NCBI GenBank assembly: GCA_021904315.1
Contig: CM038917.1
Span: 1,674,001 to 1,738,000, forward strand
Origin: Sphagnum magellanicum
Lineage: Eukaryota > Streptophyta > Sphagnopsida > Sphagnales > Sphagnaceae
Reading direction: 5' to 3'
DNA length: 64,000 bases
Part shown: positions 46,268 to 63,716 of the stretch, one piece after another
Numbering within the stretch: position 1 is the stretch's first letter
Layout of the letters: each line of letters begins with the position of its first letter
Made by a program: the position numbers and the translations under genes
The notes under the pieces: generated by a model
What the model saw: only the letters and a program-made list of their open reading frames with translations
What the model was told of the DNA's origin: nothing
Database searches by the model: none

Positions 46268-48245
46268 AATTATTTTCGACTTGTGACTCTAGATAACATT
46301 ACATACACCAATCCTCGTGCAAAAGATTCACAAATATGTATCACCACTTTGGATGATATCGTTGCACCTTTGGATTTGTGCCATGTAATTGCATAACCTA
46401 ACATTAAAGGAAATGGTGCTTTGTAAAAATGTCCTTGAGAATCATATTTGTTTTGAATTGATTTTTTTCGAACTATTTGCACGTATCCTAATGGATTGAG
46501 TGCAACAGAAATGCTATAAACATTATTTTCCGAATCAAACTCCAACTTTGTTACAATTCCAATGGTTCCATTTGCAGCACCAACTTTTAAATCAATGTTT
46601 TCAGTCAACATAACCAATGCTCCTAATGCAACATGTTGCATGTGATTGAATCTTTTATTGTTCACCCAAGATTGAATGTGTTCAACATTCCTTGCATTTG
46701 TCTCCAATTGAATAACATAAATTTGGTCAGCTAGAAATTTCTTGTGAAGAATCAAATCGTCGTAATAATCAACGTCCTTCCGATGTGCGCAAAGTATTGT
46801 TGTTTTGTTATCAATGTATTGTTCTACTAAATCTTCATCAATGTAACAATTGTTTAAAACTGATGAAATTTCTTCTTCTGTTGGTGCTCAACAACGGATT
46901 ATGTTTAAAAAAGAACAATATTCTGGATCTTCAACATGTCTTATTGAAGTTTCCAAAGTATGATATGTTGTAGAATTCCAATCAATCACATTATAAACAT
47001 AATGTTTTTGGCAATAATTTTCTGTGTCTGACAAATGGCAATGACATATTACTGGAAGTTATGCATGATCGCCCACCAAAATCACTAACTTATAATGATA
47101 TGGTTCATTTGTATCATTTTCAATTTGTCGTAGTCTAGTTTCAACGCTTTGCAACAATGTACTCGTCATCATTGACATTTCATCAATAATGATAATGTTA
47201 GCTTCTTTGAGAATTTGAAATTCAACAGTTAATTATTGTAACAGCGGAACATATCCTTTGCATTGTATATGAAATGTGTTATGGACAGTTAAAGCTTTTG
47301 AATTAAGCCTTGATGCTGCGCATCTTGTTGTTGTAGTAAAGATAACTTTTTTTTTCAATAACATATAATATTCGGTCAAATATTGAATGAAAAATGTCTT
47401 TCCACTACCAGGAGTTCCTGACATAAAATATGTTCACAAATAATGAATATGCATAACTATAAGAATAATTGATTATAAAATTTAATAAATATGCATAATA
47501 TTTTGTAGAATTTGTCTTTTATAATGTAAATATAAAAATTAATTACCATAATATATCTTTCATACGTGTAATAGATTTATGCATAACTTTTGGATGGTAA
47601 TTATTTAATATTTGAAATGAAATAAAATGAAATAAGTCATGTACTTGAAATGACATGCAAACCATTTGTTTTAGAACAAATGATGTTGAATATATGCATT
47701 TGTTCATGTGACAAAATTTTATTTTCCAAAGAATCACCAACATCATGTATCCAATAATTTGGATCAACTAGACCAATTTGTGATCCAACACATGTAGCAT
47801 CAATATTGATATTGATTGGTAAATTTTGTGAATTCTCAAAAGGATGTTTCTCCAAAAGCTTGTTGTATATTTGATTTTGCTTCTCATGATCATATAAGTT
47901 TCTTTTCCCATATTCAGATATGAGGTCTTGCAAACAATTAAAAGTTTTCACAATACCACGAACAAAACATTCATGATAATATGATCCTGCTAGATTTGTG
48001 GGAGATATCAATTCGCATTCTTTAAAAAAAGCAACATTGTTTAACAATATGTTGAAAAAAAATGGTTCAACATGTTTGCTAAGATTGAAGTCTGTGAACT
48101 GCACCAAGTGTTCACTTTTATATAAGAAAAACCCTAATTTATCTTTGCCCAAACATGTCTTCTTCTTCAATTTTGTTGTTGTGGAGAAAAGAGAAGGGCC
48201 CTCAAGCTCGGGTGACCTCGTCCTCACTTCTCCAGCAGATTTCAA
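46268..48245 (-). pseudogene. PIF1-like DNA helicase pseudogene (Helitron-type or related)
   Basis: Minus-strand pieces in order: 47637-48245 (ININIDATCVGSQIGLVDPN, LSHEQMHIFNII), Walker A GTPGSGKTF at about 47410, CAASRLNSKALTVHNTFHI, Walker B-like IIIIDEMSMM, ILVGDHA*LPV, DNKTTILCAHRKDV, and the C-terminal ALGALVMLTENIDLKVGAAN ... GYAITWHKSKGATI ... YVMLSRVTS. This is the PIF1/RecD superfamily 1B order as found in Helitron helicases. Stops at 47233-47235, 47059-47061 (the Gln of GDxxQLPPV) and 46888-46890 each fit a single C-to-T change. About 210 bases between the first piece and Walker A contain stops (intron or small insertion). No replication-initiator (Rep) domain seen. Confidence 0.75.
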
Positions 48246-48519
48246 AAATCAAAATCCCCAATTCAATGGCCAATAGTTTTTTTGAAGTTTGCTAAGTGCT
48301 GATCAGCCAATTATCCACTAGGGAGAACTTGTGGGAAAGTCCCAACATGACTGATCTGAAAATGGATACCCAAGTCAGTAACAGGAGGTTAGGGACCTCA
48401 ATCTTTGGGGTGTGGTCTTGGACAAAGTCTTGAATAAGGTCATGTTAAAGAGTATGCATGTGTTGTCAAGGCTCTTACCCCCTTTGCCCGGCCCCAGCTT
48501 CATCTGAAACCATCAGTGT

Positions 48520-50275
48520 TTAAGTGTTTCATCTCTCACATTTGTCCTCCCCTTGCCAGAACTCCTTACTATATTTTCAGCTCGACTCAAACTTGGAGTT
48601 TTCCCTGGATTTCCTTAGGTTGGTCTTCATTCGATTGTCGCATCATTCAACTGGTGATCCTTTGAATATGATTTTTGAGCACTTGCGAGACCTTTTTGAC
48701 CTTAAGGATTCAACCAACGGCTTCTCACAACTTTTCCAAGTGTATTCCCCTGTTGATTTGGGTCATATCTCAAGGTCCATTCCAGGGGTTCTTAACATTA
48801 CTAGACTTTTGGCTTTGGCCAAGCCTTTCAAAAGCATTTGATTGATTATAGCGAGTGAGGTTTTATACCGGTTGGTGAACATAGCTTTATGTTTACAATT
48901 TCATGACTTTTTTTTCACATTGTCACCACATCAATTTGGCCATCAATTTGGTGTGGCAATTAGGGGGTGTGAGGCCGTGGTTCATGACGTTTGAACTATT
49001 TTAAACATCCATCCCTATTGTGTGGTATTATAGGTGGATGTTAAAAACACCTTCAACACCATCTTTAGGAGAACCACCTTTCCATAACTTCATGCAATAG
49101 GAAGCTAGTTGTTTCAATTTTTTCCCTTTGTTAGATCCTTTTATGCCCAACAAGTTCCCCTTTTCTTCAGCCACCATTCCCCTTTGGAAGATATGTCAAT
49201 CATCCACTCTTTAAAGGGCACATGCCAAGGCAATCTACTTGTTGGACCTTTTTTTTGTGCTAGCTAATTTTCGTCCATTGTGGTGTCTAAGTTCGCTTGT
49301 GGACAACACTGACACCATTAGCTTTTATTGTTCATATTTTTTTGGCCACTTTTTTTTTTAGTTGGCTTTTGTGGGGCTCATGGTCCAATCGCGCAAGTGT
49401 TCAACTTGGTCACCTTCTAGTTTGTCTTTTGGTTTTTCTCTTCCAACTAATTTTTGTTGCCCCTTGGATGGTATTTGGGTTTTGGGCATCCCATTTGGGT
49501 CTACTTCTTTCTTTTTTTCTTTTTTGCAAGATGCACCAAACAAGGATGTTTGCCTTGCAAAGGCACTTTCAAGGTTAAAGGATGTCTAAGTTGCTTTTGG
49601 GATCATCTTTCGGTGTTTTCCCCAAAGACCCTCCTATTTACTACATTGTTTCCCTCCATTATTGGCCTTTCAATGTTAGTTTGTTTCCTTCGACTTGGTC
49701 CCCATGCAAGTTTTTAAGAGACTCTTGAGCCAAAGCTCCTTGGATTGCCCACATGCCCTATTAATGCATTAACATGTTTTTTCTTCATCTCTCGTGAAGG
49801 GATTAGCCTCATTCCACATAACTAATTGCGACTAGCAATCTATTTTAGGAATTAGGCACTTATAACATCTACCATCACCACCAAATTCCTATTAAATCAT
49901 AACCCATTTTTATTAGAGGTGATAAGTGTTGGTAGTTTTGGTTCACTTTCCTTCCAAGCCCATTTGAAGTTGGTGTCAAAACCCCTTCCCTTAGACATAA
50001 TAACATGCATTCCTTCATTCATATAATTTGCAAAAGAAGATCAAATTAACTTTAAGAAAACATTTCAAATAGATTGCACAACCATTCTTTCTTCAGCATC
50101 ATTTCTAACATGGTTTCTTATTCGCACCATACATGTTTGAAGTTTTGCGTGGGCCCAAGGGCAAGTGCTTGGCTATTTATCTCCCTAATCATTCCACCTT
50201 TCCACCTAGCCTTGGATGTTTTCTCCTTTGTGTTGCACACCAAGCTAGGCCTCCCCCATCCTTTAGTTCTTGGGG
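48520..50275 (+). pseudogene. LINE-like reverse transcriptase, 5' part of an element split by the hAT insertion
   Basis: Heavily decayed plus-strand frames in family order: SPVDLGHISRSIPGVLNITR, EVLYRLV, HQFGVAIRGCEAVVHDV, catalytic motif A-like VDVKNTFNTIFRRTTF (about 49034), motif B-like GTCQGNLLVGPFF (about 49220), motif C position reading VDNTDT in place of A-D-D (about 49303), then LVGLMVQSRKCSTWSPSSL-type segments, PNKDVCLAKALSRLKDVQVA, and FVLHTKLGLPHPLVLG up to the break. Many stops and shifts; long inactive. The frame stops exactly at the 8-bp target duplication 50268-50275 and resumes at 62338. Confidence 0.65.
50268..50275. repeat. Left target-site duplication of the hAT element (TCTTGGGG)
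   Basis: TCTTGGGG at 50268-50275 matches 62330-62337 exactly. Eight bases is the standard duplication made by hAT transposases. Confidence 0.85.
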
Positions 50276-50289
50276 CAGCCTTTTTTTAA

Positions 50290-52330
50290 GGTTTTTGGAA
50301 TTTCGAGTAGGTGGTTCTTACAAATACAATTTTAGTGCATATTTGGTGAAATTACAAATTTTGCATTGTGCAAATTTTAGCTAAACTAAGCTTGAACAAA
50401 TAGAAAATTGGTTGTGTGTAAGAAAAAAATTTCATTACAAGTTGGCAATATATGCCAATTTATAGCCACACAAAGTGGTGATGTTTACAAAGGCTAATCT
50501 AAAATTTGGTTATGGGGCCTTTGTATTAAAGAGCTCTATGACAATGCACTACTATAGTTTTGTGTTAAAATCTCTCAAGCATGTATGAAATCAGGCCTTT
50601 TTCATTTTAGGGTGACTATCACAATAAGGTGCATTCACAGTAAAAGGAGCCAATAGGCCCTAGGTGCATGTCCTTTCTAAGGACTATGTTTTTTCAAGTT
50701 TGAAACATGGCTTCCATGTTTTGGATAGGGCCCATTATTAAATGATAATGCCAACTTCAAATGTTTAATTCACATATGTTTCCATGAATTTTCAAACAAT
50801 ATGTAATTAAATCTATTTTTTAAGGATAAATTTTCATGTAAATCAAATGTGTAGATTTCAACAAAAGTAAACGTGTCAATATTTTTTTAATAATATGTGT
50901 TTCAAACCTTCGATGATACATTATACATTGACTTTATCAAACTTACTTTTCTTTAATATCATTCCAAATGGAGTGGAACATATTCACAAAAAAAACAAGT
51001 AATGTTATATAACACATTCAATATTCATGAAATTGCAACCTTGCCTTTGTTTATAACAAAATACATGTTTTTTTATTTTGAGGAAATTTTTCAAATTATA
51101 TAGTTTTAATGATCAAAAGCACATTTAGACACTAAAAAATGATTATCATGGATAATTCAAATAAGACATATATTCAAATTTTTAATGATACCATGTTTTC
51201 ATAATTATCAATATATGATCATCCATAATTTTTCAAAATTAATGATTTAGCTTCACATAAGATAAAGGATGTTCAAAATTTTAACACCTTGTACACATCG
51301 AACTGTCCACTTTTTACTATACACTTTATGACTAATCAAACATATCAAAATTACACAAAATTCATTGTCATGAAAATTCATAAGTATACAAACATTTTAA
51401 AAATGATTTCATTAAATTATAATCCTTAAAACTCATGTAATCATTTTTCAAAATCATGGGGTGCAAGATTTTTTGTGTGTACACACAGTCCTTGGCTCCT
51501 TTTATTGTGAATGCACTCAATAGGAGTTTGTGGACATACATACATATGATCTCAAACCCATAATCACAAACCTTTGGATTTACACTTCAAACTCAACCTT
51601 CAAGGCTCTAATTTAAACATTCAAACTTAAACAATTAAACCTCAAAATTTTAGATAGAAAGAAACAAATCTTCAAACATGTAAACACTTAAACATAGAAA
51701 CAAAAACAAACCTTCAAACAAATAAACATTCAAGCACAGGGACAAAAAAAATAGAAATACATATAAACCTTCAATTTCAAACACACAAAAATGGTAGACA
51801 TATAAATAGACCTCAAATTTCAAACACACAAAAATGGCAAATATGTAGACATAATTTCAAACTTCAAACACTTAGACATTTAAGCACATGGACAAAAATG
51901 ACAAACATATAAACAAACCTTCAAATTCAAACACTTACATTCATACCTTCATGTTGATACATTTAAACACATAGACATTTTGTAAAACAAACCTTCAAAC
52001 AAATTCATTTTTAAGACACAATGGCATCTACCTTAAACACACCTTCAAACTCAAGTAGACAAACCTTCAAAATTGGACAAACAATTACACATTCAAACCT
52101 TCAAACTTTGATTCAACTTTTAAACAAATTCAAAGTTGTAAGTTCAAACACAATGGCAAACCTTGAATGACAAACTCAAACATAATGAAAAACCTTCAAC
52201 AATAATTTCCTTAACAAAAAATCACCCAGCTTTAGCCTAAAGGTGTCATCACTTAGACATGGCCCTAGATAAAATGTTGTCATTGGAATTTAATTCAAAA
52301 CTCGCTTAGGTTTTTGGTCCTTCTAATAAT
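50290..52330. other. Non-coding left arm of the hAT element
   Basis: AT-rich, no coding pattern. From about 51550 to 52200 the words CAAACCTTCAAAC, ACATTCAAAC and CAAACACACAAAAATGG recur irregularly, a degenerate satellite-like patch. Subterminal repeats are common in hAT elements and may bind transposase, but I cannot assign binding sites. Confidence 0.4.
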
Positions 52331-52335
52331 AAAAT

Positions 52336-52706
52336 TAAACATCACACAAGAAGGTGTTAAAAGTGTAGAATGTTTAGGAATACATCCCAACAATAGTGTG
52401 CAAATGTTCATTGAGGCGGTTCCTCAATCTTGATTTCATAAAAGAAAAGGTAGAAATTTTTTTTTCATCCTCCACTAACCTCAACACTTGCATTATTACA
52501 ATCTTTGCTAGTTTGAAAATTTTCAAAAATGAATGCCTTAAGATCCAAGAAGCCTCCAATGTCCACCAAAGTTGTGTCAAAGGATTAACATGAAATGGAA
52601 CTTCCATTGCTACAACAATGTTGGATTTCATAGTAATCTTGAATATGCTAGATTGCATATCTACAACACTCGCAAAAAGAATGGATAAGTTCCAAGCATC
52701 ATTCAA
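52336..52706 (-). pseudogene. hAT transposase, C-terminal dimerisation region
   Basis: Minus-strand frame reads MQSSIFKITMKSNIVVAMEV, PLTQLWWTLEASWILRHSFL, then LRLVEDEKKISTFSFMKSRL and RNRLNEHLHTIVGMYSQT. The S.VEDE(R)xFSTLSFMKSRLRNRL pattern is the conserved hAT C-terminal dimerisation motif of the DUF4371/ZNF862-like plant group. It is the end of the transposase whose earlier parts lie at 53.5-56.1 kb. Confidence 0.75.
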
Positions 52707-52969
52707 TGCAATAATGAGATTTAATCAATTACATACGATAATAAAAAATTTCTTTTACATCACCTTGAAACCAATAATAAAGATAACATATCCTCGTAAC
52801 ATCCATCAAATGAAATGCTGGAAATCTTGCAGTTAATTCCAATGTGAGCAATTCAACTATAGCTACAATAGATTTACATTTAACTCATGAAAAATGTGTT
52901 GCATCACAAGCTTAAACACATACACACATGGTAGACCTTAGATTTAGTCCATTTTCAAGATCAAATGTT

Positions 52970-53175
52970 CAATGGCAACAAACTTGGTAGCACCTACATG
53001 TCTACCACTAGCAACAAACCATGGCAACACTTACATGTCTGCCATAGGCAACAAACATGGCAACACCTACATGTCTGGCACTAACAATAAACCATAGCAC
53101 CTATATGTCTGCCACCGACAATAAACCATATTGGCAACACCTACATGTTTGCCACTAGCAACAAAATCCTACATA
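52970..53175. repeat. 45-bp tandem repeat within the hAT element
   Basis: About five copies of GCAACACCTACATGTCTGCCACTAGCAACAAACCAT-like units, each with the core CTACATGTCTGCCA. It separates the transposase C-terminal remnant from the central part. Confidence 0.75.
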
Positions 53176-53539
53176 AAAACTTTTTAATATACAACAACAA
53201 ACTTGTAGCAAAAAATATGTGTGTACAAGGAAGTCTACCTTCAAATGGTACACCTACATTTATGAACAACATAATGTGATAAAGCTACAATAGTAACATC
53301 CTATAATAGAAGTAACAAACAAATACCAACCAACAATTAAACAAAAATTCCATTCCAGTGTCTAGAATTGAAAAACATTCCAAGATGAAATCAAAGGACA
53401 ATTTGAAGATAAAAACTTGAGCATAATGATTTTGCAACATCCACGATATTGCTAAAAATCTTTCTAGAAATTTTTATCTTTTCACCATGGTCATTTGAAC
53501 ATGTAGCCTAGAAAGAGTAAAATAGGATTCAAAACACAA

Positions 53540-54510
53540 AAGATTCAACACCCGAGGTGTTGAAGTCCAATGAATGTGCCTTCCATTTCAGGTGCATTGT
53601 GTTGTGGCTACAGTCCACCAAATCTAAGAATTCTTTGAAAACATCTGACACATACTTTGTGTCAAGATTTGAATAGTGGGAATAGAGCTATCCTTGGCAA
53701 ATTTTAGTGGCTGCAACATAATCACAAACAAAAACATTTCACTTTTGCACAAATATGATTAGTGCATGGATTGTTTCCAGCATAGGCAACAAACAAGATA
53801 AAGTAATTAGCAAATTCACATCACAAAGGAGCTCAAAGTAAACCTTGGGAGCCATGAGAAATGGACTATTTTCAACCATTTTTGCAACTAATGGCATGTA
53901 CATTAACATAACTCGTTTTGCCAAACTAAACATGTTCATCTAACATGTTTTGACATTCCATAAAATCTTGTTCCCCTTCATTTTTATCAAATTTACAAGC
54001 TTTGGAAACTTAGTGTGCCTTTTGGGGTTATGGAAAAAAAAAATAATAAAGTGACTAGGGCAAATTTTCTATGCGCTTCACAATAGGAGTCTGAAATAAA
54101 ATTTGCATTGTTAAATTGGTGTGATGTGCCATGCAATGAATGCCTTCCAAATGGAGGGGCAAACTTATTTTGGATTTAGCAAATAACACCATTTCGCACC
54201 CCCTAAAAAACATTGACACCGTCATCCCCAAAAGACATCAATTTTCCAACAACATTTACATTAGACACACCCTCCCCTCTTCTTTTAGAGCACCTACGAT
54301 AATCTTAGTTAAATTATTTGAGCCCCCACCTTCAGTGACTTGCTCTATATAAATAAGAATAGGCAAGCGACACCAATCTTGAACCACATAGGAATGAATT
54401 GAAATCCATGATTGGTTATCAATTGTAGTGACCTCATCACAAAAAAGGGAAAGATATCTTGAACTTGCAACGACCTCTTTCATATTCTTAATCATTTGCT
54501 TATGTAGACA
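53540..54510 (-). pseudogene. hAT transposase, central catalytic region (broken)
   Basis: Beginning just inside the solo LTR: MIKNMKEVVASSRYLSLFCD then EVTTIDNQSWISIHSYVVQD (first catalytic Asp in CDEVT), KLMSFGDDGVNVF (second Asp region, usual form FGADGVNVFQG), a shifted segment GIHCMAHHTNLTMQIL (conserved H-C-x-A-H), and KRVMLMYMPLVAKM further on. Several stops and at least two shifts. The RNase H-like layout and motifs match DUF4371-containing hAT transposases of plants. Confidence 0.75.
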
Positions 54511-55425
54511 TTTGATGTTGTAACCTTAGCCTTGGGCTCACGACCAAGGCAAGGGCTTGCAATGTTGCGGGCCAAGAAGGAAGCCCGGGAATGAAGGAAA
54601 GTGTGAGGGAATGAACCCTCACACTCCCAAAGGAGCTTCCACTTTGGGAGTTAGAGTCCCGGTGGACTCTCGGTGGACTCCCGAATGTTTAGAGAGTGAT
54701 CGCAAGGGTCAAAGCCCAATGGCTCGAAGAGTTATTTATGCCATTGGAAAGCTATTGAAAAGTAGATGTCTAAAATGGGCTCGCATCACCCATTTAGACA
54801 TTTGAAACACAAGTTATGGCCAAAAGAAGGGCCGGGAGTCAAATTGGCAGTTTAACTCCCGACCACTAAAAGTTGGGAATCGACCTGATTTCCTTGTGTG
54901 CAAGTGGCGTGCGACATACCATTGAAAAGATTTTGACAAGGGCTACAACTTTGTTTTAGACCTCATTTTAATCAGAGGTTTGCACACAAAGTTATGGGGC
55001 CCCAAAGTCGCGAGAGTCCTAACTTTGGCGATTTCGGGACTCCCACTTGGGAGTCCTAGGACAAAAAGTCATTTGGATGTGGGCCTTGTGGAGAGGCATA
55101 GAATATACTATAAAGGGGGAAGGTGATGGTTTCCCCCAAGTCCGGGCCATGGTGAGTCTTGTGAGTCTGAGTTTGCCCGTGGCTTGTCTTAGCACCAAAA
55201 GTGCTCCAACTATGCACTAACCACCTTGTGTTGGTTTTGTGCAAGTCCGTGTGAGTAATTCATGTTTGTCACTTTTCCTAGTCACATTTCGAAGCTCTAG
55301 CACACCCCTCTACCCCTTCAAAGTGTTGCGAGCCAGGGAACATGCCCCAACTCCTTGTTTTTCCGATGTCTTTAGTTTGGACTCACATTTGAGTCCATTA
55401 AAGAGCTTGGGGGTGCATCATTTGA
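54511..55425 (+). mobile_element. Solo LTR, 905 bp, with 5-bp target duplication TTTGA
   Basis: LTR 54516-55420 begins TGTTGTAACC and ends GGTGCATCA (TG...CA), flanked by TTTGA at 54511-54515 and 55421-55425. It interrupts the hAT transposase between its zinc-finger N-terminus and catalytic part. It is less AT-rich than the hAT around it and has no coding capacity. A plausible TATA-like stretch (ACTATAAAGGGG at about 55108) points to transcription on the plus strand. It differs from the chromovirus LTRs nearby, so it comes from another family, possibly Ty1/copia or Ty3; not determined. Confidence 0.85.
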
Positions 55426-56062
55426 CCATAACCCAACCAGAAGAGTCATTCTAGTGATTCTTTGGCTTCATGAGAACATTTAGAAAAGAAAATAACGATT
55501 TCATAACTTCAAACTCCAACATAGGTGTGCCATGTTGCAATAGATGCAAAATAATGGCAAATTATTCCCTTTTTATTCCTTTCTCCCCCTTGAAACCTCC
55601 TTGAATCACATGTTCAACAATTGTGATACAATTTTGTTGAGAATAGGTTACCTCATTTTTTGCACGATTGCACTTTTTGTCGACATAAAATTCCCCTTAC
55701 TTCTGGCCCAAATGTGGCATGTCTCAAACCGCCTTAATTTTTCCTACATGCTTTTTAAAAGTGTCAAATTTTAACCCCAAAATCACATCCTTCCCCTTCG
55801 CAATTAAACAAACAATGCATTTACCACAATGGATTTCACCAAAATCATTTTTTAACATTTTGGCCCACAAAAATTGTAACCCATATTTCATTGCACTTGC
55901 AAGATACATCATAGTTTCTTTTTTGCTTCTTCGACATGAGTTTGTTAATCTCCTTTGGGAGAACATGGACCTCAAACAAGTCAAGTGCAAAAGGAACGAA
56001 AATTGGTAGTCTACTCGAACATACAATTGCACTATTAGGTTGCTACAGCTTGAATCCAAGTT
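55426..56062 (-). pseudogene. hAT transposase, N-terminal BED-like zinc finger region
   Basis: Minus-strand frame reads YLASAMKYGLQFLWAKMLKN, DFGEIHCGKCIVCLIAKGKD, VILGLKFDTFKKHVGKIKAV and continues through stops toward KCNRAKNEV-like sequence. The C-x2-C ... H pattern with W/F before it is that of a degenerate BED zinc finger, which binds transposon ends. This is the transposase 5' end; the start codon is not identifiable. Confidence 0.65.
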
Positions 56063-56323
56063 CGATTCTACTTTGCTACCATTAGACCTTACCTCAGAAA
56101 AGGAGATAAATCAACAAAATCAACTCGATTTTAAAAAGAAAGGTAACACATTATCTACCATTTTGTGCTTCCCTATCGGTGCTATCAAAAATTACATCAT
56201 TCATTCACATTTAGCGCACAATAGATACTTGAAATTTCTAGAACAACAAACCGCCAAATGTACACAATAGAAAAAAAAATGTTCCAAAACAATTGAACAC
56301 ATTATGACGTGTGCTCAAGTGAC
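56063..56323. other. hAT 5' segment before the chromovirus insertion
   Basis: Remaining upstream part of the hAT element on the minus strand; no coding signal. The chromovirus target duplication CATTG occupies 56324-56328 and 61797-61801. Confidence 0.5.
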
Positions 56324-56328
56324 CATTG

Positions 56329-56684
56329 TGTTGCAGACGGCAACTCACACAAGACTCGGAATAACACTCTAAGCTCCAAAACTAGAACTAGTAACACTCA
56401 AAGCGAGAAAGCTAGAAGAGCAAGTACAACTGGTGTTGACGAAAGTGAGGGACAATGTCTCGAGGCTCTCTATTCATACTGTTAGGACGCTACTGGGAAA
56501 CTCTAAAGTTGGAAAGTTGGCACCGCCTCCAAGTTCGGAAAAGTCCGCACCATCACCGTTATTGTCACATCCGCGACATTTAGGGAGAAGTCCGCACCGT
56601 TTCCCAGTTGGGAAAAGTTCGCACCGCCTCCCAGTTGGGAAAAGTCCGCACCGTCACTGTCCGTCACCGTCACGTCTGTGACAT
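56329..56684 (-). repeat. Chromovirus 3' LTR
   Basis: 356 bp; on the element strand it starts TGTCAC and ends GCAACA. Preceded on the left by the duplication CATTG (56324-56328). Contains two to three 27-bp tandem units with CAGTTGGGAAAAGTCCGCACC. Pairs with 61442-61796. Confidence 0.9.
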
Positions 56685-56699
56685 CACCCCCCCCCTTCA
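56685..56699 (-). promoter_or_regulatory. Polypurine tract of the chromovirus
   Basis: On the element strand TTGAAGGGGGGGGTGA lies immediately before the 3' LTR, the expected primer site for plus-strand DNA synthesis. The eight-G run is clear. Confidence 0.75.
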
Positions 56700-56819
56700 A
56701 GCAACGAGTTCCCACGAGTTGTTCTATTTATCTTATAAAAAACAGAAACAAAAATCTATTACAAGAAGTCCATGGGTACAGCCTGATTTGGTGCTAGTGT
56801 TGATCCAGACGTGTTGGAT

Positions 56820-59800
56820 TCAAATATCTTTGGCACTCGGTTTTGTCGGGTATTGACGATGAAATTTTTTGATCATTTTGGGAGCGTTAGCAAGATTAGT
56901 AGCCGGTTCCCAAGTTCGCTCGCTTACTTCATAGCCCTGCCAATGTACAAGATATTCTAATCTCCTTTGATTGATGCAGGAGTCAATGATCTTAAAAACT
57001 TCAAATTCTTCTTCTCTGTTGATCTCGATTAGTGGCGGAGGTGCTGGCAACCGTCCTGGAATAGTCGATTTTCTATACGGTTCAAGCAAGGAAACATGAA
57101 ACACTGGATGAATTTTCATAGATGATGGCAGGTCCAACATGTATGCTACCTCGTTGATTTGCTTACTCACGTGAAAAGGTCCAAGACGACGATAGTCAAG
57201 TTTGTCACTTGGTCGGCGAGTCTTCAAATTGCGACGTAAAAGCCAGACTTTATCTCCAACTGAGATGTTCGGATTTTGCTTTCGAAATTTGTCTACATTT
57301 CTCTTCTGCCGCTCTTGAGCTTCTACAAGCCTTGCCTTCATGTCATTGTGGATTTCCAAAAGTCTGGTGACCAGATCTTGCGCAACCGGATTCTTTGCCA
57401 AACTCAAGTTCAAAGAGTCAAATCATGGATGATGTCCATAGTTTGCGAAGAACAGAGTTTGGTGGATGGACTCCTGAAATGTATTGTTATAGGCAAACTC
57501 TGCGACTAGAAGTAGATCCACCCAATCGTCTTGATGGTAGTTGATGAAGCACCTTAAATACTGCTCTAATACTTGATTCACTTATTCGGTTTGTCCATCT
57601 GTCTGAGGATGATACGCTGATGATAAATTGATCTTCATTTGTAAGATTTTGAACAAGGATTGCCAGAACTTGGACGTGAACTGCGTACCACGATCAGAGA
57701 TGATGTCGTCGGGAAGTCCATGATATTTGTACACATTCTCCAAGAAAAGTTGTGCCGTTGCTTTACCTGTGATAGTCTTGTTGCAAGGAACGAAGTGTGC
57801 CATCTTTGTCAAGCGGTCCACCACAACAAAAACTGAATCAAAAGATTTGGACTTTGGAAGGTCCACAATGAAGTCTATGGATGTCCATGGGGTTTTTGGA
57901 ATCAACAGCGGTTGAAGTAACTCGTATGGCCGATGATGAGGGATCTTGGATCTAGAGCAGGTGTCACACATTGTGACATAGTCCTTCACGGTTTTCCACA
58001 TTTGGGGCCACCAAAAGTCTCTGGATATCAGCTCCATAGTCTTGTTGTAACCAAAGTGTCCTGCTGATGGAGAGTCGTGTCGAGACTGGAACACTCGGAG
58101 TTGGCATGGACCTTCAGGGACATAAAGTAGTCCCTGGTAGTATAACAACCCATCCTGGAACTGGAATCTTGGATCAGCATCATGCGATCTGGAAACCTGT
58201 GAATTGGAAGTAGGTTGATTCGGGGATTCTAAATCTATAACCTCTGAGCCTGGACTTGGAAATCCTTTAGGATTGAAAATGTCGGCATTGTTCTTCAATT
58301 TCAAGGCCAAAGGGTCGAATTTTAAACTTACTCGGATATCTTGGAGAAAAGATGCATCCACCGAAGTTGTGGTGCGCACACTCTTCAGCTGAAGTTGCTT
58401 AGGCTTGATAAGGGTAGTCTTTTGTTGGTCGTAAGCTGCATCTCCTTCCCTGGGTGCAAGATACACTCGTCGGGAAAGAGCATCGGACCGAATTTGCTTG
58501 GAACCAGGGCGGTACGTGATGACAAAGTTAAAGCGCGAAAGCGATATGCTCCAACGAGCTTGTCGTCAATTCAATACCTTGGCAGACATGAAGTATTCAA
58601 GGTTCTTGTGATCGGTGTAGACCGTGACCGGATGTTGAGCTCCTTCAAGAAAATGACGCCATTCTTGGAACAAGTTGACAATGGCTAAGAGCTCCTTGTC
58701 GTGGATCTCATAATTGATCTCGGCAGCAGTAATTTTTCGTGAGTGAAACGCGATAGGATGGAGGCGTCCGTCTTTGTCGGGTTGTGAAAGGATTGCTCCA
58801 AGGGCAAAGTCAGAAGCATCCGTTTGCTTCTGGAAACTAGGATGCGTCAGAATAGGTGCCATTGTAAACGCCTTCTTCAGAGTTTCAAATGCTTGGTCTG
58901 CTTCCGCATTCCACTCGAGCTTGTCTTTGCGAGTCAATCGGGTCAATGGAGCAGTAATCTTGGAATAGTTTCGGATGAAGATTCGATTGAAGTTTGCAAA
59001 ACCGAGGAAGCATTGTACGTCTCGAACAGTAGCCAGTTTCTTCCACTCAGTGACTGTCCGAATCTTCTTTGGGTCCATGGATAGACCCTCTCCAGAAATG
59101 ATGTAGCCCAAGAATTCGACTTGGGGTTGGTGGAAAACACATTTCTCCAGCTTGGCGTATAGTCCAGCAGTGCGTAGCTTTTCCAATACTAGCCGGACAT
59201 GGTTGATGTGCTCTTCTTCATTCTTGGAGAAAACCAATATGTCGTCGAGATAACAAACAACAAAATCATCTAGAAATTCTCGGAATACGTCATTCATCAA
59301 ATGTTGAAAGATGACAGGTGCATTGGTAAGACCAAAAGGCATGACATTGTATTCAAAGTGTCTATACCTAGTTCGGAATGTCGTCTTCCATTCGTCACCT
59401 TCCTTGATACGTACTAGGTTGTATGCTCCACGAAGATCAATCTTGGTGTGGATCTTTGCTTGACCGAGTTGGTCAAGAAGTCTTGAAATAAGCGGCAATG
59501 GATACCGGTTCTTGATTGTGACCTTGTTTAGTCCACAATAGTCCACGCACATCCGAAGGGAGCCGTCTTTCTTCTTGACAAATAGGATAGGAGCTCCAGC
59601 AGGTGACTTGGAATGTCAAATGAAGTTCTTCGCGAGATTTTCATCAAGGTAATCTCGCAATGTAGCAAGCTCGTTCTGGGAGAGGCTGTAGATTGGACCA
59701 AAGGGAGGTTGCGCACCTTCTTGGAGTTCGATGCCACAATCATAAGGTCGATGCTGAGGAAGTGTATCAGCGTTCTTCTTCTCAAACACGTCTCGATACT

Positions 59801-60460
59801 CTTCATATTCTGCTGGTAACTTGGTTGGTTTTTGAACAGGTTGAGATGTCGGAATTGCATAAATTGCAAAGATATTTCCATTCTTGGTAGCCCTCATAAA
59901 GGCTCGAGCACCGACCATCAATGGAACTTTGACCGCAGACCCTTGGACTTGGTAAGGATATGGGTTTGGGACATTTCTAGGGTGTCTAGACGAAACATGA
60001 GAAGCTATGGTTCGATATGTTAATTTTCGCTTTTCCCAATCTATATCCGGGTTAATCTTTTCTAACCAAGAGAGACCTAAGACGAGAGGATTAGAAGGAG
60101 AACTAATGATATTGAATACAATAGTACTTCAGTGCCCTTCTAGGATAATGTCTAAGGGTTTAGTTTCGTGAGTGACATCTCCTGAAATCAAGGGCCTACC
60201 ATCGATAACCTCTACTGTCACAGGGCATTTTTTAGGGACTATAGGAAGATTATGACGTTTTACAAGATTTTTATCAATAAAACAAGCAGAGGTTCCGAAA
60301 TCTAACAAGGCTTTAACTTTTATGCTATGTGGATGAAAATCTATTTTAAGTGGGATATTAAAACAACGAGAAGGTTCAAAGGATAAAATAGGACCTGATG
60401 TCATGGCAACATTTGTCAGCCGCACGGTCCCTAATGTGGCTGGCTGCTGTCGTTTTCCGA
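56820..60460 (-). pseudogene. Chromovirus Pol (PR-RT-RNaseH-IN-chromodomain), broken
   Basis: One frame from about 60460 to the stop at 56820. Protease near 60290-60320 reads LLDFGTSACFID, with Phe where Asp-Ser/Thr-Gly is expected. RT carries [34 protein letters not shown] and the catalytic YLDD (about 59245). RNase H has [12 protein letters not shown] and [10 protein letters not shown]. Integrase has an H-H-C-C region (CDTCSRSK) and catalytic Asp/Asp/Glu in VDLPKSK, SDRGTQF and DGQTE. The chromodomain EVFKIIDSCINQRRLEYLVH then WQGYEVSERTWEP ends the protein. Stops occur near 60127, 59614, 58567, 57583 and 57420; those I checked fit C-to-T or G-to-A changes. Described only; not reconstructed. 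Confidence 0.9.
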
Positions 60461-61417
60461 CTCGATTTCCTCGTGTCTTGGCTCAGAAGTGCTTGACGTG
60501 TACCGAAATTTGTGCGCCTTTGACCCCTGAGGTTTCAAAGGGCAGTTGTTTAAGTTGTGGTCCTTGCCTCCACAATAAAAACACAAGTGCTCCTTGCGAC
60601 ATCGTTCTTTCTCTTCTTCGGTTAGCTTCCTAACTCTCGAAGTGTCGATTTGCATGGGCTCTGGGGTCGAAGTGCTTGAAGATGTTTGGCGGATTGGAGC
60701 TGTGTAATCTGTTCGATTTGATCCAAAGAGCAATCGTCGCTCCTATCGTTGCTCAAACAGCCGGTTGTCGCAGTCGATTGCTTGAATAATGGCTTCCGAC
60801 AGAGTAGTTGGTTTGGGCAAGTTCAGCAACAAGGTTTTGATATCGTTGCGGAGTCCCCATTGAAACATGGTGATGAGAGCCGTGTCGTTCCAATCGAAGT
60901 CACATGCAAGTTGTTGAAATTTTGCAACATATGCTGAAGCTGGGCGCGATCGTTGTTACAGTGTTCGAAGTTTTGTTGTTGCTATAAGGGCTCGATCTCT
61001 CTCTCCAAACGTTCTGCTGAATTCTTCCAAGAATTGATCAAGGTCTGCCAAAAGTGGAGAATCTTTCTCCAATAGTGACGAAAACCAAGATAACGCAGTT
61101 CCGGTGAGCAGTGATCCAATGAGTCCAACTTGTGTTTCTTCTATTGCGTATCTGTGTGGTTGGAGACGAAAGACAAGTCGAACTTGATTGACAAAATCTC
61201 AAAGTTTTGTACGATCTCCGTCAAACTTCTCTGGCAAGTTTACTCGAGGTTCTTTTGGTGCTTGTGGAACTGGATTTGCTATGGAAGTTGGAACATGGAT
61301 TGGAGCGCGAGCAACTTGGAGATGTTCCATGGCGTTTCGTAGGTTGGCATTCTCTTGTTGTAGTTGTTGCAGCATGGAAACCACGTCATGCATCTAGATG
61401 TTGGAAGCGTCACCCAT
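60431..61417 (-). pseudogene. Chromovirus Gag with CCHC zinc knuckle, broken
   Basis: ATG at 61415-61417 lies only about 25 bases inside the 5' LTR. Recognisable parts: LQQLQQENANLRNAMEHLQV coiled-coil start, PRVNLPEKFDGDRTKL, the capsid-like TALSWFSSLLEKDSPLLADL, and the nucleocapsid knuckle CFYCGGKDHNLNNCP (C-x2-C-x4-H-x4-C) at about 60545-60590. Stops at about 61396, 60985 and 60741 break it. The Gag frame ends with TAG at 60431-60433; Pol uses the -1 frame. Confidence 0.85.
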
Positions 61418-61441
61418 CTTGGTAGTGGACTCTCGTCAAAC

Positions 61442-61796
61442 TATTGCGGACGGCAACTCACACAAGACTCGGAATAACATTCTAAGCTCCAAAATTAGAA
61501 CTAGTAACACTCGAAGTGAGAAAGCTAGAAGAGTAAGTACAACTGGTGTTGACGAAAGTGAGGGACAATGTCTTGAGGCTCTCTATTCATATTGTTAGGA
61601 CACTATTGGGAAACTCTACAGTTGGAAAGTTGGCACCGCCTCCAAGTTCGAAAAAGTTCGCACCGTCACTGTTACTGTCACGTCCGCGACATTTAGGGAG
61701 AAGTCCGCACCGTTTCCCAGTTGGGAAAAGTCCACACCACCTCCCAATTGGGAAAAGTCCGCACCATCACTGTCCGTCACCGTCACGTCCGTGACA
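61442..61796 (-). repeat. Chromovirus 5' LTR
   Basis: 355 bp, partner of 56329-56684; ends in GCAATA where the other LTR has GCAACA. Followed on the right by the duplication CATTG (61797-61801). By eye about 24 of 355 positions differ between the two LTRs, all but one of them transitions. Confidence 0.9.
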
Positions 61797-61801
61797 CATT
61801 G

Positions 61802-62329
61802 ACAATAATCTTCAAATAGATGAAAACACAAATGAAGGTAGCTACAAAGGTCCTAGTGCACATTACATACCTAACTTACTATATTTGAATTTGGTGATCG
61901 CATCAATTTGGTGATAATTAATGCACACCCACCACTACAAGCCACCACTACATTTCATAATCACAAGTCCTTCATTGTTGTAACTTCAACTTCTAGCACT
62001 CATTGTTGGAAGTGATGATGGTTGGAAGTGGTGCTATCCATAGTAATGGCGAATAACAACAAGAAGGTTTCATGTCTTGTTGGTGAATCCTCCATCATCC
62101 ATGAAAATAATGGGTTATAAACCTAGATATAATGGTGCAAGGTGGCAATAGTGGTTGCATCTCAACCAACTATAGCAGGCGATTTAGTTTAAGGTTTATG
62201 ACATAGTTCGACAATTGAACACAACGTCATTAATGACATATGGTGATTTTACTTTATTTTATTTTATTTTTTCCTTTGATAGATTTTTTTGGTCATTTTT
62301 TGGCAATTTTTCACCAATAAAAAAGGTTG
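61802..62329. other. Right terminal part of the hAT element
   Basis: Non-coding; ends in the right terminal inverted repeat (about 62308-62329, CCAATAAAAAAGGTTG on the plus strand). Confidence 0.6.
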
Positions 62330-63716
62330 TCTTGGGGTGACCCATTGCATTTGTGGCCAACCTTTAATTTATGTAAAAACCCACCTTCTTTGTTATTCCC
62401 ATGGTGGGGAATGGATTACATTCCACAATGTGGTTCGAGATGTAGGGTTTCATGTTTCACATGAACAAACCCAGATCCTTTCGGATACAATCATAATCAA
62501 ATGAGCCAACACTAATAAAAAGGATTCAACCATAAATGGGCCTTTTTTTAACATTTTGACTTTTTCATACAAAAGATGTTTTGAAGGATTGTTTTTACAA
62601 CATGTTTTTAAAATATTTATAATTCCCCTAATAAATTACATTACTTGTGTTAACTCTTTTTGAATAAATATGATTTTTAAGAGTGTACAAATTTTATGTG
62701 ATTTTATATTTCGTCTTGAAAAATAATCATAATCTCAAATCATTTAAAAATATGATAATTACTTTAAACTTTAATTTTTTGTATCATACACATTATGACC
62801 CATTTACATCTAACAAATGACTTTTGAAGTTTGAAATTTCTGAAATTATATTTTGAATTTTTAAGAATTTCAAATACTACAATTTTAAAATTATGAGTGT
62901 TTTTCATTTGTGGATGGTTAGCTATCATCATTTCAAAATATTCCCATCAAGTTTTTATATCAGTAAAATCCTTAGCCTAGTGTTTTATAAACTAATTTTA
63001 GGTGTTAAAATTCAAAAATCTTTTACTAAAACCAATTTGTTAAATTAAGTTATTTTTTAAAAAATTCTTGAGCATTCATATAAATCATTTAGCACAAATT
63101 TCCTTGATCAACATGACATTAAAGTGCCATTACATAAATATGTTTTACAAAATTGATAGTTTTTCAATCATCCAATGTGGTTTTTGGTTTCTTTAACTAT
63201 GATCACACCCTTCCACCCCCTTCCCTTCAGTCTTTTAGTCGATGGGTTGACATCATGTTGTCAACTAATAACATTCGCACCTTGGCTAACATGGTCATTA
63301 TCAATCCCACCCAAATACTTTTGGTTTTTCGAGTTGCTTCATCTCGTGAGGTGGTCACAACGGTAGTAGTTCAAGCAAAGGAAGGATTTTATCATGATTG
63401 GCACCCAACATACATGTTTCTTCTCCTTGCTAATAGAGGTTTTGGGTGCTTACACTAACAAGTGAACAATTTTTTCACCAATGTGCTAGCATGGTACAAT
63501 TAGCAAAGGGCATTGGTGGCCCTCCTTTGGCAATTCTATGTGCTTTCTATAGGCAAAGGAGTGTCCATAGCCTTGCAAAAAACACGAGGTGTTTTGATTC
63601 TGAAGCACGTCATCATTGAAAGTGACGGTTCTTCTAGGCTTAATATGCTTTCAGGTTTCCCTTCCTTTTCCTTCTCCAATATGGTTCTTGCAACTTGTGG
63701 GGGCTTTGGAACATAA
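62330..63716 (+). pseudogene. LINE-like element, 3' part (continues 48520-50275)
   Basis: After the TCTTGGGG duplication (62330-62337) the frame resumes as VTHCICGQPLIYVKTHLLCY then SHGGEWITFHNVVRDVGFHV, and, after shifts, RWVDIMLSTNNIRTLANMVI, VASSREVVTTVVVQAKEGFY, FGCLH and LIL..V..SDGSSRLNMLSGFP to a stop at about 63714. The conserved HCICG...H.L.CSHGGE pattern (a Cys/His motif C-x-C...H...C..H) and the RVDI.LS...R.LADVVI segment follow the reverse transcriptase in this family of plant elements. Decayed by many stops. Confidence 0.6.

Follow-up and report, generated by a model that had tools for sequence, protein, structure and literature searches.

Insertion of hAT superfamily DNA transposons generates 8-bp target site duplications, as described in the portion of PMC3942097 available to us. 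LINEs with a restriction-like endonuclease (RLE), such as R2, NeSL and Utopia, carry an LP pair ahead of a zinc knuckle, followed by residues in the order D, D and K..Y (available portions of PMC5678591 and PMC4640811). The RLE clades are named in PMC4640811, the available text of which places none of them in land plants and contains neither "moss" nor "Selaginella". At the locus described here, a decayed LINE whose tail may be of this kind is interrupted by a hAT-like transposon, which in turn holds three other mobile elements. The window, meaning the whole 64-kb stretch of DNA that was analyzed, corresponds to bases 1674001 to 1738000 of contig C11, and the genome searched comprised 438,994,042 bases in 31 contigs. 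In the history that we consider highly probable, a cut-and-paste transposon, hAT-like and some 4.8 kb long, would have entered an existing LINE copy once, duplicating 8 bp of coding sequence (TCTTGGGG), and would then have remained in place and decayed. Three later insertions would have followed, namely an 892-bp inverted-repeat element (duplication AATA), an LTR element of which a solo LTR is left (TTTGA) and a Gypsy element with a chromodomain (CATTG). The features are collected in Table 1.

Table 1. Components of the nested insertions, with positions in the window
Feature	Position	Strand	Basis or remark
Left part of decayed LINE (RT-like stretch to linker)	48500-50275	+	Translation read by eye; 48500 is approximate
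Target site duplication, left copy (TCTTGGGG)	50268-50275		Single equivalent in paralogous LINE copies
hAT-like DNA transposon, including later insertions	50276-62329		Alignment with C3 paralogue; ends common to other copies
Left terminal inverted repeat (CAGCCTTTTTT)	50276-50286	+	
MITE-like inverted-repeat element, 892 bp	50627-51518		Duplication AATA at 50623-50626 and 51519-51522
Transposase-like C-terminal remnant, 116 aa open	52377-52724	-	53 database relatives at E ≤ 0.001
Transposase-like remnant (..LFCDEVTTIDNQSWISIHSYVV..)	54259-54510	-	Translation; open to 54525, entering the solo LTR
Solo LTR-like element, 905 bp, TG..CA	54516-55420		Duplication TTTGA at 54511-54515 and 55421-55425
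Gypsy LTR retrotransposon	56329-61796	-	LTRs 56329-56683 and 61442-61796; duplication CATTG at 56324-56328 and 61797-61801
Right terminal inverted repeat (CAACCTTTTTT, as read on the minus strand)	62319-62329	-	
Target site duplication, right copy (TCTTGGGG)	62330-62337		
Right LINE part, VTHCICGQ.. zinc-knuckle-like stretch	62338-62477	+	43 matches in 40 scored places, own included
Separate repeat, about 0.7 kb, inserted in LINE	~62478-63164		67-74% match to other repeats
LINE C-terminal part, restriction-like endonuclease-like	63210-63455	+	Relatives P0001-P0004; motif comparison with available part of PMC5678591

The transposon and its later insertions together span 12,054 bp, adjoined on both sides by an exact TCTTGGGG, and the inverted ends match at 10 of 11 bases. 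The duplication and matching ends to which the first-pass annotation had pointed are thus present. We scanned all pairs of exact 8-mer duplications lying 1 to 20 kb apart for 11-bp inverted inner ends with at most one mismatch. This pair was the only match in the real 64-kb window, and 20 first-order Markov resamples gave 18 matches in total, with at least one match in 13 of the 20. By themselves, the duplication and the inverted ends are at chance level and not significant; because they prove little alone, relatives had to decide on the insertion. Across the whole genome, the pattern CARCCTTTTTT was uninformative: it occurred 1888 times forward and 1952 times in reverse, and its reversed control 1429 and 1423 times, respectively. 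A comparison with Rfam gave 0 matches.

When the element is removed and one copy of the duplication is kept, a 128-aa open frame spans the join; with the element present, the LINE frame reaches a stop 4 residues further on. The restored LINE frame that the first-pass annotation had described therefore holds locally at the join, but the upstream LINE part contains stops and frameshifts, and the separate repeat interrupts the LINE further downstream. Searching with window positions 62330 to 62520 yielded 81 candidate places, of which 40 were scored; these contained 43 matches, counting that of the window itself. From the 39 other places we fetched the 20 that ranked 2 to 22, omitting C6:25882701, and aligned them to both flanks with one duplication copy, using the 400 bases from 49876 to 50275 as the left flank. 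Uninterrupted LINE copies, for which the same annotation had proposed to search, were found throughout: in all 20 fetched copies the match crossed the join with no insert and covered 15 bases or more to its left and right, and in 11 of them the frame stayed open across it for 15 or more codons in both directions. No gap lay within 7 bases of the join in 19 of the 20, the exception being L049, which had a small gap at the join itself. L045 had a 17-base gap near the join on its left side, just 21 bases matched to the left of the join in L052, and in 13 copies the match began within the first 11 of the 400 bases on the left. The pre-insertion site is visible in these relatives elsewhere in the genome.

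The joined frame was also compared with 124 related proteins, 4 from a first search and the best 120 of 209 from a second, which used a profile of same-genome LINE copies that were all continuous at the join. At least one protein match was identical to a fetched LINE copy. Among these 124 proteins, which are related and not independent samples, 120 matched the 128-aa frame at E ≤ 1e-5 and 118 aligned over the join by at least 10 residues, 109 of the latter being gap-free within 10 residues of it. A simple pattern search of the 124 showed that the spacer between LGLPH and HCICG was 7 residues long in all 46 proteins displaying both motifs, as it is in the joined window frame.

The best relative of the transposon, C3:18881652-18886204 (4,553 bases), aligned piecewise with window positions 50281 to 62329 at 77 to 86% identity and ended at the same last base. 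This C3 paralogue lacks all three blocks occupied in the window by the 892-bp, solo LTR-like and Gypsy elements (Table 1), and the short duplications flanking those blocks are single in it (AATA; TTCAA for TTTGA; CACTG for CATTG). A tandem array near 53077 to 53353 is also some 0.3 kb shorter in the paralogue; in the window, a short imperfect tandem array with units of about 36 bp occupies positions 52974 to 53173 inside the transposon. The flanking duplication of the C3 paralogue matches at 5 of 8 bases (ATCTACAA and ATTCGCAA), a relative at C2:6801756-6806967 has an exact 8-bp duplication (AAGTCCAC) on both sides, and the flanks of the copy at C3:6206585-6212837 give no clean 8-bp duplication. 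The duplication is thus exact in 2 of 4 copies, those in the window and on C2.

The ends recurred in other copies, as the first-pass annotation had proposed to check. The left-end search scored 40 matches, counting that of the window itself, and 33 of them started within 8 bases of the left end. With the right end, 13 matches were obtained at 11 places; 3 places besides the window reached the last base and 2 more reached base 525 of 530. Five further right ends, that of the C3 paralogue and 4 others, stopped at the same boundary, 2 of them having changed last bases and being judged by eye. The last bases read GGTTG in two, AGTTG in C3, and GATTA and AATTG where the boundary was set by eye. The insertion is real and its borders are exact to the base.

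If the two parts of the LINE were unrelated pieces joined by a rearrangement, the 8-bp match would be a coincidence, and the duplication and ends are indeed as frequent in the Markov resamples. However, the LINE is continuous in all 20 fetched copies (19 of them gap-free at the join) and in 118 of the 124 proteins, the C3 paralogue terminates at the same base as the window element, and the empty-site copies contradict such a junction, which leaves a rearrangement with a negligible probability. There is strong support for a single insertion into the LINE frame that predates the LTR elements within it. Alternatively, one or more of the three inserts might already have been aboard when the transposon reached the LINE, the C3 paralogue being the one other copy read through its length. 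In that paralogue, nevertheless, all three sites are empty, and a transposon enlarged to as much as 12 kb by its load would in general be expected to move less readily; an arrival with passengers appears very improbable. We conclude that the order from LINE to transposon is well supported, most likely followed by the three others, which would have entered after this transposon copy had landed here. The first-pass annotation had given the order as LINE, hAT and two LTR elements; the order stands, but the later insertions number three, the 892-bp element having been missed. None of the three is nested in another, and therefore we give no order among them. Because of the duplications, we infer cut-and-paste movement with an 8-base staggered cut. 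Counting against this history of insertion and decay in place are the duplication of the C3 paralogue (5 of 8 bases), the copy at C3:6206585-6212837 with its unclean flanks, the gap in L049, the 21 bases in L052, the identity of only 77 to 86% between the window element and the C3 paralogue, the chance-level frequency of the duplication with its inverted ends, and the lack of Pfam, PDB or Foldseek matches to a hAT transposase. A literature search, limited in extent and no proof of absence, found no description of this nest or of these families. The locus is a case of ordinary transposon nesting that is unusually well documented. Having several nested mobile-element events recorded to the base at a single place helps with relative dating and with the annotation of a plant genome whose element families Pfam covers poorly.

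With the three inserts and their duplications subtracted, the transposon proper measures about 4.8 kb, so that of the 12-kb hAT insertion described in the first-pass annotation the insertion and its borders are upheld, whereas the length of the transposon itself is smaller and profiles did not confirm hAT. The element is like members of this superfamily in its 8-bp duplication (all 8 bases in the window and C2 copies, 5 in the C3 paralogue), its size of a few kilobases and its decayed coding remnants on the minus strand, and it may be like them in its short inverted ends. The window element starts with YAR, (C/T)A(G/A), and so do those copies for which the left end was read. In addition, the motifs CDEVTT.., HCMAH..NL and EDE..FS.LSFMKSKLRN in the open pieces may resemble those of hAT transposases. 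It is unlike them in that the ends read CARCC, with C as the fifth base, versus the hAT consensus YARNG, with G at position 5, and in that TCTTGGGG fits neither of two target consensus sequences, that of Ac or that of Buster elements.

Profile searches did not bear out the hAT transposase remnants that had been reported from the first reading. No Pfam match was obtained for the open window pieces 52377-52724, 53742-53939, 54259-54525 and 55727-56110, or for 50773-50886, which lies within the 892-bp element. Eight open pieces of the C3 paralogue, in which the counterpart of the 54259-54510 remnant is open, gave no credible Pfam match either, and nor did 25 aligned C-terminal members, including 23 database relatives picked from the 53, among which two chance families were each matched by one member. 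For the C-terminal piece, a PDB sequence search gave no match, and Foldseek with a low-confidence model of that piece gave nothing significant (one match at E 3.4). The insertion history would be the same if the transposon came from another superfamily that makes 8-bp duplications, such as P, Merlin, Novosib or Zisupton, and both the failure of any curated hAT profile to match the scanned open pieces or the 25 aligned members and the C in place of G at the fifth end base are in its favor. Set against this are the (C/T)A(G/A) ends, the hAT-resembling motifs and the 8-bp duplications that are exact in two of the four copies, and we regard a different superfamily as unlikely. The assignment is based on the 8-bp duplications, the YAR-type ends and these motifs, and we use the label "hAT-like" and not "hAT."

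Parts of the host LINE lie on both sides of the insertion. In its upstream part, RT-like stretches were read by eye in translation, the pieces being too broken for a profile. In the tail, an LP pair precedes a Cys/His knuckle, and a domain with the order D..D..K..Y follows; the separate repeat sits between the knuckle-like and endonuclease-like parts, where the protein P0003 reads through; repeats resembling it at 67 to 74% are found in L010, L011 and L040. Compared with the knuckle and the PD-(D/E)xK-like domain with KX2KY in the available part of PMC5678591, the order and some residues fit but the spacing differs, the window knuckle being approximately CxCx9Hx2C versus the published CX2-3CX7-8HX4C. 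The endonuclease-like part gave no profile or PDB match, its structure model was of low confidence, and bacterial and archaeal genome contigs scanned with one LINE protein yielded nothing confirmed. At the motif level, the tail appears to resemble that of an RLE LINE, which we treat as a lead. Plant L1 elements use an APE enzyme. It is a speculative and rather doubtful proposition that the host belongs to an abundant LINE lineage of land plants in which the target is cut by a restriction-like endonuclease rather than by APE, and that the transposon represents a hAT branch too divergent for the present Pfam models. An RLE-type LINE in a land plant would, if true, be notable and would bear on the survival of early-branching LINEs in land plants.

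Many fragments of these plant elements (P0001-P0177) are present in a genome and metagenome protein collection, in which they are called "hypothetical protein" where named; our guess is that they originate from peat samples. To the left of the LINE, a Pif1-type helicase remnant lies on the minus strand at 46273 to 48248 (Pfam Pif1_2B_dom at 46273 to 46887), possibly derived from a Helitron.

The 892-bp element has 25-bp arms with GGGTGC..GCACCC-type ends, and 38 other scored genome matches were found for it (38 of 40 matches were to this element and not to the rest). Among 15 other copies with both ends found, the 4-bp duplication, lying outside ends of the GG..CC type, was exact in 8, matched at 3 of 4 bases in 5 and was poorer in 2; terminal inverted repeats and a duplication of constant size across copies mark the element as MITE-like. 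A further copy of the 905-bp solo LTR-like element is present in L015. The Gypsy element matched the Pfam families rve, Integrase_H2C2, SH3_Tf2-1 and Chromo, and with an integrase and a chromodomain between 355-bp LTRs and a 5-bp duplication it shows nothing unusual for a chromodomain Gypsy LTR retrotransposon. Its LTRs differ at 24 sites, giving a Kimura distance of 0.072, which would correspond to about 3 to 5 million years at rates from other plants that may not be those of this plant. Of the 24 differences, 23 are transitions, an excess that suggests methylation decay.
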